This document shows positions 8,924 to 56,852 of a stretch of DNA of 64,000 nt, piece after piece. Within the stretch, counting starts at the first letter, position 1; each line of letters opens with the position of its first letter. The notes beneath the pieces were generated by a model, which was not told the origin of the DNA, searched no databases, and saw only the letters and a program-made list of their open reading frames with translations. This DNA is from a virus. The translations under genes and the position numbers were made by a program. The DNA is taken from the IMG/VR virus record IMGVR_UViG_3300037493_005685, positions 1-64,000 of that record; one strand, given 5' to 3'.

Positions 8924-11900
8924 TCAGCCATCCCTTCCGAATGATTCCGGCACTGCTTTGTTGTAGGTCTCTGCGAGAGCCTTGGCACCTTCAGCAAAGT
9001 TCTTAGCCGCAGCGGGTGTGAAGTACTTAAAGGCTTCTGCCATAGAGCTTGATACGCCGTCTAGAGACTTGGCTGATGCCGCAAGTTGCTGGGCTTGTTC
9101 TCCAGTAGCAGCCGTAAGGGACTCGTAGGTTCCGCTCTTGTCTGCGCCGCCTTGGCCGATGAGGGCTAGTACCTTATTCTGCGCCGCAGATATATCTCTC
9201 TCATTTGTCCCGTTAATACCGCCCTTAGTAGCTGATTTATAACCGCTAAGTGCCTCAGCTAAATCCGCGTGTCCACTTGCCTTAAGGGATGCTATCTTTT
9301 CAGAGGTAATAGCCCCCGCATTAATTTTACCGCCATCCATAACATCACCAAGGATGTCCTTCATGGCGCCTATTGCTGAGGCAGTCTGTCCCTTGACAAG
9401 TGTCTGGTTAGAAACGTCAAGAGCTGCACGGAACTTAGTATCGCCCAACTTATCACGAGAAGCCATGAGAGCATCTTTAACATTTGCGGATAACGGTCCA
9501 CCTTTAGTCTGCATCAACTCCACGACCCTGGCTTTGATGGCAGACTTCTTAGCTCCAGGCATCTCTTTCGTTACGAGCTCTGTTAGCTTGGCTTCATTAG
9601 CAGCTGTGTTGCCTGGGTCACTTGCAAGACCTAAGGCCGTAGCGTACTGCACTGATTCTTTGGTGCCCTTCATCCATTTAGTTACGTCTTCCTGTGCGTC
9701 TGAAGACATACCCATGGTGTCACCCAACATAAAGTCTAATTGACCTTGGTAACGTTTAATACCCGCTTGAGCGTTTTCCCAACCTGCTTTACCTTCGTTA
9801 AAGAAAGCTTCCGATTCTGCAAATCCTGCTGCCTCTTTAGCCGTAGCTCCACCTTTACCTGAAGCGACAACATTCTGCAGTATTTTTGCTTGGTCTGCTT
9901 CAGATAAAGCGTTAAATTTTGCCCTAGCTTCTGCGGGCAAACTATCCACAAAAGCGCTTTTTATTTTAGTAGTACCTATGCGGTTATTTTGTCCGACTAT
10001 CTTCTGTCCTGCACCTGCTAATTTTGCTACCTTACCACCAGCAGAACTAGAGTACTGAGCAAACTGAGCAGCGGATAAACCTAGCTGCGCTCCCATCTTT
10101 TCTGCGCTGGCTAAACCCTTTTTACCTGTCAGTACCACATCAGACGTATTTAAGGCTCTACCCTCAGACCGTTTAGATTCCTCAGCTTGTCGAATAGTCT
10201 CCTGAATATTCTTGTCTGACTGTCCTGCTGCTAGACCCGCGCCCATCATACTCTGCATAGATTCGTAATCGAACCCTGCAAGCCCTAAAGGAGTCATCCA
10301 AGCAGCGGCCGTACTTGCCGCGTCTAGTCCAGCTTCTCCCCAAGAACGAGAACCTTTATCTTCTCTACCTAAATACTGAAGTGCACTTGTGTAGTCGCGG
10401 TAATGAAAACCACCGCCCTTCATAGTGGGAGTGGCCTTACTGCCCAAAGTCTTTAACTTAGACTTATAGACATCACCCTCTTGCTGGGTCATCCCGCTAA
10501 ATGTATTCTCAGCATAGTAATACTGCCCACTCTCACGCGCAGCTTCCGACCTATTCTCATCACCCCAATGCTTAAAGAATCTACTGATACCTCGAGAAGC
10601 GCCAATATCAATTGTTCTATCGACACTACGCCCTGCAGCGCCTAAAGATTCTTTAATGCCACCAAAGAAACCAGGGGCGTTATCTTTAATGTCCTGGAAC
10701 TGCTGAACAGCGAGCTCGTTCTGCTGACGCCTTACGCTGTCCTTAAGAGACTTCCAATACTGGGGACTCGAGGCTTCCTTGAGCATCTGCGTGGCAACTT
10801 CATCACCAAACATCATGCGTGAGCCAAGAGCAAAAGCCCCGGCTCCCTTGAGGCCCATCTGCTTACCCGTCGCAAGAGCACTCTGGAACCGCATCGCCGT
10901 TTGCTGCTCTGGGCTCATGGCCCTGGAGACTTCGTCCTGCATCATCCCCGCTTGGAGCGGATACATCGCGAGAGCGCCCACGCCACCACTTTGCACTGCA
11001 CGCCCAAGATTCGCAGCTGCACCCATAACAAAACCGGCAGCTCCACCACGTCCACTCATCCTTTGGGAAGCTTGGTTGTAATCGACACCCCAAGAGCCAC
11101 CCTGGAAAGAAGCCATCGACGCGCCCACAAGAGGCATCGACATCATCGCGGCTTGGGCTTGCATGTTGCGCTGTGCGATACCGGACTGCCCACCAAGAAG
11201 AGCCGCCTGCGCGGGCGAGTACACACCTGAAGCTATCGACTGCCTCGCGGCCATAGCCGAGAACATGCCGTACTGCATACCTGACGCTGCAGAGAGTCCC
11301 ATGCCCTGGTAGGTCATAGCTCCAGCACCGCCCATCTGCATAATGCCGTCGATAGTCGTACCAGCACCGCGAGAGAAACGCCGCATTCCGTACGCAGCGC
11401 CTTCCATATCTCCGGGTCCGTAGCCTAAGCGCTGTAGGTCCGCCATCTTGCGGATGATGCCACTCACGTCGGGGTCGTTGGTGAGCTCCATGAACTTCTT
11501 GAGGCTCAGAGCTGTACGGCGTAATTGTTCTTTGATTTGGTCGGTGTTCTGCGTGAAGTCCATCAGGCCCGCGCGTCCGCCTGTCTGAAGGATGTTCGCC
11601 ATGTCATGACGAGAGAACATACCGCCCGTCTGCTGCTTGAACCCTCGGTCCTCCGTCATGTCCATGATGCCCTTAGAAAGGTCCATGGAAGCACCACGGG
11701 TCAAGCCTCGCCCCATGGCGTGCATCTGGCTACCACCGACAACCCAGTCCTGTGACATCCTCTGCACAGACGCACCCATCTGGTGTGTCTCCATAGAAGG
11801 ACGGAAGGGCATCATCGCCAAGTCGCCCATCCCACCAGCAAGACCAGACATGCCCGCACCAACCATGCCCATGGCTGCGCCGATCAGCGGGCGACCCATT

Positions 11901-18753: not shown

Positions 18754-19356
18754 ATGAGACGTTTTATTCCTGGTCTATTTATGTTCGCGTTAACGACGCT
18801 AATGTTGTTAAATGTGAACGCTGCAGAACGCCCCTTATCTAAGGAGGCAAAGGGTGCCTGGATGACGGCCACCCCTGCAGAAGTTGAGACTGCTATCCAG
18901 CATATCCTGGAAACAGAGCCAGCCCATCATCTGAATAAAGATGATGACGCCCGAAAGAACATGGCGGATAAGATTGTTGAAGTGGGTCAAGCTATCAACG
19001 TTCCACCCCTTCTCATGTTATCCATTGTGTTCCGTGAGTCCTCGTTCGATGAAAAGGCTGTCGGTAAGCTGGGGGAACTTGGGCTTATGCAGGTAGCAAA
19101 GATTCATGTGCGGCACCTAGAGTGCGACATGAGCAATGCCGTGGGTCAGATGACCTGTGGGACAAAAATGTTGCGTGACGCCTTCGATATTTGCCACACT
19201 TGGAATGGGGCACTTACCCGGTACGCTACGAAGGCAGGACAGTGTACCAGCGATTCTCCTCACGTTATGAGCAAGGTGAACTTGCGCATGCGTGATTGGC
19301 AGCGCCTATCCATTGCGGTACAATCTCACCGTTATGAGGAAGGGACAGAGGAATAG
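18754..19356 (+). CDS. secreted lytic transglycosylase (SLT-type), endolysin candidate
   Basis: 200 residues, strong AAGGAGGAAGAG before the ATG. Residues 1-23 form an N-terminal signal sequence (RR, hydrophobic core, cut after NAA). The SLT fold signature follows: PPLLMLSIVFRESSF with catalytic Glu95, then KLGELGLMQV about 10 residues on, the usual E-S-x-F...G-x-x-G-L-M-Q arrangement. It cleaves peptidoglycan glycan strands. The Sec signal suggests export without a classical holin, as in SAR or exported endolysins; a later membrane protein (21981-22370) could serve as holin or pinholin. Confidence 0.85.
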   Translation: MRRFIPGLFMFALTTLMLLNVNAAERPLSKEAKGAWMTATPAEVETAIQHILETEPAHHLNKDDDARKNMADKIVEVGQAINVPPLLMLSIVFRESSFDEKAVGKLGELGLMQVAKIHVRHLECDMSNAVGQMTCGTKMLRDAFDICHTWNGALTRYATKAGQCTSDSPHVMSKVNLRMRDWQRLSIAVQSHRYEEGTEE

Positions 19357-19363
19357 TTTGAAC

Positions 19364-19511
19364 GGGTCTTTGTATTCATTGGCAACTGTGATCGCATGCA
19401 TACGCAGTAACTGCGTACTTTTATGCTTCGTGCCAGAGCGCACAATCCTTCACGTAGCTGGGTCGAGCTCGATGGAGCTCTCGGCCCTCAAAGCAATGAG
19501 TACAAAGGCCC
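19364..19511 (+). ncRNA. structured RNA element, copy 1
   Basis: An 18-bp closing stem (19364-19381 with 19494-19511, two G-U pairs) encloses a conserved hairpin ACGCAG-TAA-CTGCGT, a variable region with further small hairpins (for example GAGCTC-GATG-GAGCTC) and the conserved box CCCTCAAAGC just before the 3' arm. Two more copies follow. The element lies between two same-strand genes and has no plausible ORF. Confidence 0.75.
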
Positions 19512-19519
19512 TACCCTTT

Positions 19520-19665
19520 TACAAGACCGTGTCGCTACAATGTTTGGACCATGACTTTTCCTAGCGTAGTAACTACGCTCCCTTTGTTTCTGCGGGTCGT
19601 CGCCCGGTGTATGCCCGATGCATGTATAGTCCCTCAAAGCAAACAAGTAGCGACACGGTCTTGTA
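19520..19665 (+). ncRNA. structured RNA element, copy 2
   Basis: A perfect 19-bp closing stem (19520-19538 with 19647-19665), unrelated in sequence to those of copies 1 and 3, followed inward by the helix GTTTG/CAAAC. Inside are the hairpin GCGTAG-TAA-CTACGC, a CCCTTTG segment, a variable GC-rich hairpin and the box CCCTCAAAGCAAAC. The compensatory change in the small hairpin (GCAG/CTGC to GTAG/CTAC) supports RNA structure. Confidence 0.8.
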
Positions 19666-19677
19666 GTTCTTTCCCTG

Positions 19678-19837
19678 AAAACCCTGCAGAGTAAGTTTGG
19701 TATTCGCTCGTTCGACGCAGTAACTGCGTCCCTTTATGTTTCGCGAAGACGCGGGTAAAACCACCCGAGGCTCTTTTCTCCGCCAGGACATACTAGCCCT
19801 CAAAAGCAAACCTCTGCAGGGTTTTCTTTTTGTTTTG
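19678..19837 (+). ncRNA. structured RNA element, copy 3, with terminator
   Basis: A 14-bp closing stem (19678-19691 with 19812-19825), the inner helix GTTTG/CAAAC (19695-19699 with 19807-19811), the hairpin GACGCAG-TAA-CTGCGTC, segment CCCTTTATG, two or three hairpins (CGCG-AAGA-CGCG; GGGT...ACCC) and the box CCCTCAAAAGCAAAC. The 3' arm runs directly into TTTTCTTTTTGTTTT, so this stem doubles as an intrinsic terminator. Confidence 0.8.
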
Positions 19838-19869
19838 CCTTTACAGCGTAACGCCATTAAACTCAGCCC

Positions 19870-20151
19870 ATGTTTACAGACAAAGAGAAGGTAGTCGGCG
19901 TCATCGACGTCACATCAGGCGGCATTCTCGTTACAGACGCTGTGTGGGCCAGCGCACTTCCTATCACAACTGACAGCAGTCTTACGCTGGACTTGAGTGT
20001 TCCAGCCGGTAAGATTCCTATTCTCTCACTTATGCGCGGGGGCAAGCGCCTACTCATCATTGATATCGATGGCATGTGGAAGAACACAAACATGGCCGAG
20101 AACGTGGAGGTAAGAAATCCACTCTCAAATGAGGAGGTAGAGAAATGGTGA
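19870..20151 (+). CDS. hypothetical protein
   Basis: 93 residues, mainly beta (VVGVIDVTSGGILVTDAVW, RLLIIDIDG). Not recognised; no strong ribosome site. Its stop overlaps the start of the kinase gene, suggesting a shared message. Confidence 0.6.
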   Translation: MFTDKEKVVGVIDVTSGGILVTDAVWASALPITTDSSLTLDLSVPAGKIPILSLMRGGKRLLIIDIDGMWKNTNMAENVEVRNPLSNEEVEKW

Positions 20152-55793: not shown

Positions 55794-55820
55794 CCTTCTA
55801 GGCTACATACGAGAGGCCAA

Positions 55821-55904
55821 TACGAGGAGCGGGGGTCGAACCCGCACGCCTTTACAGGCAAGAGATCTTAAATCTCCTGAGACTTCCAATTCCTCCATCC
55901 TCGC
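55821..55904 (-). tRNA. tRNA-Leu(UAA)
   Basis: 84 nt, class II. Acceptor GCGAGGA/TCCTCGT (one G-U), discriminator A, D-loop with GG, anticodon stem GGAGA/TCTCT with loop TTTAAGA (anticodon TAA), long variable arm (GCCT-GTAA-AGGC), T-arm GCGGG-TTCGACC-CCCGC. The CCA end is not encoded. Confidence 0.93.
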
Positions 55905-56003
55905 AAAAACCCCAACAACCCCCGCACCGCTCAAAGTAAAGGGGCCATTGGAGCAAGCAGTTTAGTGCGTCATACTCAGGACGCTTGACCAGCTGCCAAC
56001 TGG

Positions 56004-56480: not shown

Positions 56481-56510
56481 GGTGTCTCCTTTGATTGTCC
56501 ATTACTTTAG

Positions 56511-56852
56511 TGGAGCTGCCGGTAATCGAAACCGGGTCCGATACATCGTCTTCTACACCCTCGTCCACACGCTTGGTGGCATCTCTCTTGGTACGCTACC
56601 TGCCACGATAGCGTATCAGTTTTCTCTCGTATCTTAGCCAACCATACTGAGAGCCTTTGGTTGAAGCGCCCTGGTTAATTACGCCACGTCAGCCCCTACA
56701 GGGGGAAGAGACTGGGTGACGGAGAACGGCTCACGCCGCTTTCAGGTACTCTTGCGGTTCGGCATTTGTACGTTGACACTTCTTTACCCAGTAAGCGTCA
56801 TCTGGGGCGTGCGAGCATAACTTCAGTTGTACCGTCAAAACCTTTCAGCCCC
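56511..56852 (-). ncRNA. ssrA: transfer-messenger RNA (tmRNA)
   Basis: 342 nt. 5' end GGGGCTGAAAGGTTTTGACG matches the tmRNA start (GGGGCTGA...GGxTTYGACGG). 3' end TCGGAC, T-arm CCGGT-TTCGATT-ACCGG and CAGCTCCA pair with the 5' end with the G3-U70 pair that directs alanine charging. The P2 region (CACGC / GCGTG and CTCG / CGAG) is also seen. The tag frame (56763-56731) reads AEPQEYLKAA then TGA, 10 codons like the usual tag. CCA is not encoded. It rescues stalled ribosomes and tags nascent chains for proteolysis. Confidence 0.92.

Follow-up and report, generated by a model that had tools for sequence, protein, structure and literature searches.

Tandem structured RNA modules with variable closing stems at gene 3′ ends in uncultured phages

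Introduction

Among the structured RNAs described in bacteria and phages, STAXI is a repeated pseudoknot located near DNA-binding genes, in two or three tandem repeats (PMC2864571). Like other tandem candidate RNAs (Weinberg et al. 2010, PMC2864571), it is a tandem structured RNA without an assigned role. CsrB/RsmZ-type protein sponges carry many similar hairpins in each RNA, as a decoy needs, and the type III toxin-antitoxin systems ToxIN, CptIN and TenpIN contain tandem structured RNA repeats. In bacterial 3′ UTRs, REP/BIME elements occur at gene 3′ ends and convergent junctions in variable copy number. GOLLD, ROOL and other ornate RNAs are large structured molecules, some of them phage-borne (PMC12286853), and the pRNA of phage phi29 is closed by a terminal helix. 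Each of these shares some trait with the phage RNA modules described here, phi29 pRNA also being of similar length.

Three adjoining RNA modules between two phage genes

The window analysed is the first 64,000 bases of the viral contig G000 (95,498 bases). Its genes include a helicase, a secreted SLT transglycosylase-like protein and a dNMP kinase, which indicates that G000 is a bacteriophage. No relative of the region was found among cultured phages (phage collection), either by DNA or via two group-specific proteins, and the helicase has only distant matches there. A sequence-only reading of the window had proposed three tandem structured elements between two plus-strand genes, which was borne out by their stems and by their folding z-scores against dinucleotide shuffles (-8.3 for the whole array region). 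The features are listed below; bit scores refer to R1, a covariance model built from 17 copies.

18754-19356, plus strand: secreted lytic transglycosylase-like gene (SLT domain; Pfam PF01464, E 2.8e-9), with the array in its inferred 3′ UTR
19364-19511, plus strand: RNA element E1 (z -5.4; 27 bits, not in the R1 training set)
19364-19381 with 19494-19511: closing stem P1 of E1, 18 nt, 89% complementary
19402-19416, plus strand: hairpin HP1 of E1, ACGCA-GUAAC-UGCGU, supported by covariation
19485-19493, plus strand: 3′ box CCCUCAAAG of E1, its final AG invariant across the family
19520-19665, plus strand: RNA element E2 (z -7.0; 48.4 bits, training member)
19520-19538 with 19647-19665: P1 of E2, 19 bp, perfect
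19542-19546 with 19640-19644: inner stem of E2, GUUUG with CAAAC
19564-19578, plus strand: HP1 of E2, GCGUA-GUAAC-UACGC, with a compensatory C-G to U-A change relative to E1 and E3
19631-19639, plus strand: 3′ box CCCUCAAAG of E2
19677-19826, plus strand: RNA element E3 (z -5.5; 48.2 bits, training member)
19677-19691 with 19812-19826: P1 of E3, 15 bp, perfect
19695-19699 with 19807-19811: inner stem of E3 (GTTTG/CAAAC)
19715-19729, plus strand: HP1 of E3, ACGCA-GUAAC-UGCGU
19797-19806, plus strand: 3′ box CCCUCAAAAG of E3
19823-19836, plus strand: U-rich tail right behind the E3 closing stem, from the sequence
19870-20151, plus strand: next gene, conserved and without assigned function, the syntenic right edge of the array, followed by the dNMP kinase gene

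The closing stems had been given as 18, 19 and 14 bp; the first two lengths stand, and the third is 15 bp. The E2 and E3 stems are the only perfect inverted repeats of at least 15 bp within 300 nt in the whole 64 kb. The proposed inner helices, GTTTG/CAAAC in E2 and E3 and CATTG/CAATG in E1, are present and constitute the inner end of P1; in E1 the helix runs on continuously from the stem. Also as described, HP1 of all three elements shares the pattern CGYAG-TAA-CTRCG, the compensatory change lying in E2, a CCCTCAAAG box precedes each 3′ arm (starting at 19485, 19631 and 19797) and E3 terminates in TTTTCTTTTTGTTTTG. The U-rich tail is a possible terminator of a transcript comprising SLT and the array.

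A loose motif scan located two further copies in G000 (74351-74477 and 74489-74613), both beyond the window; each is closed by a separate stem, and their HP1 variants are CGAAG-UAA-CUUCG and CGCAG-UAA-CUGCG. A conserved 65-aa ORF (G000 74192-74389; G001 10777-10977) ends inside element E4, and its UAA stop codon is the HP1 triloop of E4, so that translating the ORF would unfold E4.

Distribution among phages

Relatives were fetched with a pattern of two hairpins about 150 nt apart, in which the variable stem position was not required to pair. It matched G001 (39 kb), whose DNA is about 67-82% identical, and G002 (113 kb), which is similar at the protein level only. An exact DNA pattern including the CCCTCAAA box had no match in viral contigs, and most other matches of the loose hairpin-pattern searches were spurious, the hairpin or the closing stems being absent. 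Further phages came from two-protein and six-protein helicase alignments; single-protein searches gave no relatives. The family compiled comprises 41 elements of about 105-190 nt, arranged in arrays of 1-9 copies on 10 contigs (39-194 kb) from uncultured phages, and the phage proteins share only about 30-50% identity.

In eight phages the array directly follows the same SLT gene, which is strong evidence of homology. In G002, four elements occupy the gap between the gene in the SLT position and the ortholog of ORF 19870. Since GTAAC and GTTAC are reverse complements, the strand of this array is ambiguous from the loop alone; a minus-strand reading was rejected in favour of the plus strand on the position of the box, the spacing between the 5′ arm and HP1, and synteny. 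The same gap holds four elements in G003 (one of which has HP1 and no clear P1), three in G004, one in G005, two in G006 and three in G007. The eighth phage, G021 (locus L174, 144 kb), was fetched via a neighbouring protein only and scanned with a second covariance model, R2, which placed three copies in the predicted gap (40.7, 22.7 and 21.4 bits). A fast R2 search of the whole L174 record returned nothing, and the full model applied to the locus returned the three copies.

The rule-based scan revealed a second site, in the gap between the convergent genes for the family A DNA polymerase and the terminase large subunit, occupied on the polymerase strand in G002, G004, G005, G007 and G010. In G006 and G008 these two genes abut, without an element. 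The genes at the SLT site of G008 are also adjacent, without an array. Because copy number is one in some phages and elements are missing at both sites in G008, the array is not essential for the clade. G004 carries one extra element after its helicase region, and inspection of the distant phage G010 (194 kb) showed nine tandem copies obeying the same rules. The strand of the elements is that of the upstream gene in every case in which the gene strand is clear.

Other repeats were encountered. In the DNA polymerase/terminase gap of G004 (L089; 53.1-54.2 kb, minus strand), 8-9 copies of the 12-mer GACAGCAGTGCC are spaced 60-140 nt apart, each spacer forming a different strong hairpin; this was not seen in the other genomes. 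Locus L062 (Paenibacillus alkalitolerans) has about 13 hairpins of the form CCGGAGTAACTCCGG, mostly with 52-nt spacing, and Cohnella contigs also matched the two-hairpin pattern (L060, L065 and L075, the last being Cohnella endophytica). R1 had no match in L062 and L075, and these bacterial hairpin repeats are probably unrelated to the phage RNA family. R2 had no match in five bacterial genomes, and none in 141 further bacterial genomes under strict filters; as such fast searches are able to miss members, these negatives carry little weight.

A common anatomy

The anatomy was established from 23 elements delimited by hand. From 5′ to 3′, the order is the P1 5′ arm, a G, HP0 in many copies, HP1, often HP2, a variable domain, a box, AG and the P1 3′ arm. 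P1 comprises 6-19 bp of any sequence, with the third pair from its inner end being U-A in 34 of the 41 elements and C-G in the remainder, and the invariant G just inside it is usually part of GA. HP0 is a small hairpin (summed energy -65.7, vs -25.2 ± 6.1 in shuffles). HP1 has six pairs and the loop G-N-W-A-C, found in all but one of the 41 copies. HP2, with a UUC triloop, was present in 9 of the 23 elements, compared to 0.3 in shuffles. The box preceding the 3′ arm, for example CUCAG or CUCAAAG, is followed by the invariant AG. Across all 41 elements, the unpaired G7, A17, A28 and G29 and the pair G14-C18 are invariant. The variable domain often holds GAGCUC or GCUCGA, which are enriched (9 and 8 of 31 elements, respectively, vs about 1 expected); this suggests a further conserved hairpin or a tertiary contact.

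The stems and the interior vary from copy to copy, and this could be taken to indicate an array of base-pairing small RNAs, each with one target and with the variable parts serving as seeds. Bacterial small RNAs are commonly derived from 3′ UTRs, which would also agree with such a function. However, the variable parts lie mostly in perfect stems and the conserved parts are unpaired, the reverse of a seed pattern, and we regard this explanation as quite unlikely.

Covariation and controls

The sequence-only reading had made its case depend on homologues in other phages and on covariation beyond chance, and both were found. In the core alignment of 41 sequences, 99.6% of the P1/HP1 cells pair, a percentage inflated for the rule-found members because some were recognised partly by pairing, an effect limited by the held-out and reversed-sequence tests; 213 cells are changed on both sides. 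The covariation score is 1.103, vs 0.219 in shuffled alignments and at most 0.138 in slid controls. The ungapped core of 23 sequences gave similar values, with 99.6% of cells pairing, both sides changed in 11 of the 12 pairs and a covariation of 0.958 (shuffled, 0.204 ± 0.027; slid, at most 0.168). The claim that the closing stems differ in sequence between copies while pairing is kept thus extends to the whole family.

Given the partial recognition by pairing, held-out tests were weighted more. R1 recovered its training copies and three held-out elements (E1, L105_b and G001_E5), in each case on the expected strand; 433 kb of control loci gave no match. On whole contigs it detected two tandem copies in G010, outside the training set, with E values of 2.6e-5 and 0.002. 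A rule-based scan of the ten contigs gave 37 matches, compared to 1 in the reversed sequence and 0, 0 and 0 in three shuffles. Moreover, corresponding P1 stems of G000 and L174 differ almost completely in sequence and pair in both phages. That the RNA family is real is, in our judgement, practically certain.

An ORF of 90 aa (19292-19564, plus strand) and one of 94 aa (19573-19857, minus strand) run across the array, which could suggest a coding region or chance structure. Neither has a Pfam match, and no evidence was found for translation across the region, which would have counted against an RNA. As the rule scan, the L174 model match and the covariation all exceed their controls, and the stems are almost wholly replaced at orthologous positions of G000 and L174, a chance or coding origin is refuted for practical purposes.

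A DNA-level element without an RNA role, such as a replication origin, a set of protein-binding palindromes or a recombination hotspot, has also to be considered, since HP1 with a GTWAC loop is a near-perfect DNA palindrome in several copies. Yet the loop is asymmetric (NWA, with the last A invariant), the loops CUA, AUA, GUA and CAA break the palindrome, and the orientation of the elements follows the upstream gene. The occurrence of G-U pairs and the strand-specific loop A argue for RNA, and we consider a DNA-level element very improbable.

Within an array, the 5′ and 3′ arms of the same copy pair over 6-19 bp, and the arms of different copies over at most 7 bp, so that the copies would fold separately. 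This supports the earlier suggestion that distinct stems keep the copies from mispairing, and the contrast between cognate and non-cognate arms would fit selection for independent domains within one transcript.

Comparison with described RNA classes

The RNA class had not been recognised from the sequence, which agrees with the database searches. With Rfam 15, the whole window matched only tmRNA; the array region, searched with E up to 10, gave two chance matches far below threshold, and 12 related loci, searched with E up to 1, gave nothing. The tmRNA is encoded at 56508-56852 (minus strand) with the tag AEPQEYLKAA, and the phage also encodes a tRNA-Leu(TAA) at 55820-55905 (minus strand). The sequence-only reading had named a phage regulatory RNA, a protein sponge and a decoy of a host RNA as candidates; without an Rfam match to the modules, nothing supports mimicry of a known host RNA. 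In the literature, no description was recognisable as this phage RNA module.

The modules differ from each of the systems introduced above. In contrast to the STAXI pseudoknot, they are large multi-hairpin units with a closing stem, and the published STAXI model gave no match. They lack the GGA hairpin loops of CsrB/RsmZ, where a CsrA/RsmA sponge would repeat GGA and HP1 has GNWAC, and each of their units, about 150 nt long, is a domain closed by a separate stem. The structural traits of a protein decoy are present, namely multiple copies, each an independent scaffold exposing the same nucleotides. Compared to the ToxIN, CptIN and TenpIN repeats, the phage units are far larger and follow housekeeping-type phage genes without an adjoining endoribonuclease toxin gene; no toxin was found among the neighbours (SLT, function-unassigned and dNMP kinase genes) with Pfam, PHROGs or PADLOC. 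REPs are short palindromes of conserved sequence, whereas the modules are several times longer, free in sequence and conserved in structure. They share the position of REPs at gene 3′ ends on the mRNA strand, at 8 of 8 SLT sites and five DNA polymerase sites. GOLLD and ROOL are much longer single molecules (PMC12286853). The phi29 pRNA is a single-copy RNA of small phages, whereas the modules are multi-copy and lie mostly after a cell-wall enzyme gene.

The multi-helix fold of the modules, their invariant nucleotides at the P1 junction and in the HP1 loop and the proximity of the DNA polymerase and terminase genes in five phages would be compatible with an RNA having its own activity, either self-cleaving, self-assembling or involved in packaging or replication. 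Rfam models of pRNA, STAXI, GOLLD, ROOL and ribozymes nevertheless had no match in the window, the array region or the 12 related loci, and no conserved core of the known small self-cleaving ribozymes was detected in Rfam. The commonest site follows the gene of a cell-wall enzyme and the internal domains differ among copies, both of which speak against such an activity, and it appears improbable from these comparisons. From the Rfam and literature results, we regard the phage RNA module as a new RNA class, although the way in which it acts may turn out to follow a known principle.

Transcription and possible functions

In 8 of the 8 phages, the first P1 starts -1 to 11 nt past the SLT stop codon, so that no promoter would fit between the gene and the array; behind the last copy, a terminator (U-tract or hairpin) is predicted in about six of the eight. 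The simplest reading is therefore that the array forms the 3′ UTR of the SLT transcript; more generally, we infer that the elements belong to 3′ UTRs and are not clearly independent genes. Within the last part of the SLT gene, a sigma-70-like promoter match (19296-19324) does not exceed chance expectation. After the array and upstream of the ORF 19870 ortholog, a motif like TTAAACTCTGTTAACGT occurs in G002, G003, G004 and G007 and is possibly a phage promoter for the next gene. Another motif, CCTTGGTATAACT-CAT, precedes both the SLT gene (window 18650) and the 65-aa ORF (L004 10178), and is a candidate phage promoter of the extended -10 type.

The following mechanism can be proposed. The array would be transcribed as the 3′ UTR of its upstream gene (SLT in G000), ending at the terminator behind the last copy. 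Each module would fold alone, because no two P1 stems of an array are interchangeable, and would offer one RNA-binding partner, from the phage or the host, a small common set of unpaired nucleotides, namely the GNWAC loop and the G and AG next to P1. With every module showing the same nucleotides, an array of several copies would act as a multivalent platform for binding, most probably either a decoy that titrates the partner or the RNA component of a small RNP. RNase III or a similar enzyme could also use the long P1 duplexes to cut the modules out of the mRNA.

That invariant nucleotides are exposed on scaffolds of varying sequence, and several times in each transcript, points to a common binder, and there is about an even chance that the modules would work by recruiting one common protein. 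The trans-acting form, as decoy or RNP, is suggested with somewhat less than even confidence. The most specific version, in which a new class of phage RNA recruits one dedicated protein via the GNWAC hairpin and the P1 junction, and in which expandable 3′-UTR arrays of up to nine diversified modules inhibit a host factor or build a phage RNP, is put forward tentatively. Models of defence systems gave no lead, and no protein stood out clearly as the partner when phyletic patterns were compared, in part because the contigs are incomplete.

The main rival to the decoy or RNP reading is a cis-acting role at mRNA 3′ ends, in which the modules would block 3′-5′ exonucleases and antisense read-through, aid termination and raise the SLT and DNA polymerase mRNAs. 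REP elements are thought to act in this manner at mRNA 3′ ends in bacteria. Every clear site is at a gene 3′ end, within 11 nt of the stop codon at all eight SLT sites, many sites have a terminator, in five phages the second site lies where the DNA polymerase and terminase genes converge, and copy number varies freely; both main sites and most of the rest come straight after genes, and the fixed position after the same gene fits a cis role as well. However, a stable stem would suffice for this purpose, yet six positions, four of them unpaired, are invariant in 41 copies and HP1 is kept, and a lone terminator hairpin could replace up to nine copies. We consider such a role somewhat less probable than the decoy or RNP reading.

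Biological significance

It is rare in phages for a structured RNA family to combine strong covariation and fixed synteny with a copy number that ranges, at the same sites, from one to nine, and large phages carry many unexplained intergenic regions. With the RNA delimited, six of its nucleotides seen to be invariant and a covariance model built, what binds the modules, and why, becomes directly testable. The family also illustrates that an array of RNA domains can exchange all of its closing stems and still keep the fold, presumably to prevent pairing between copies within one transcript.
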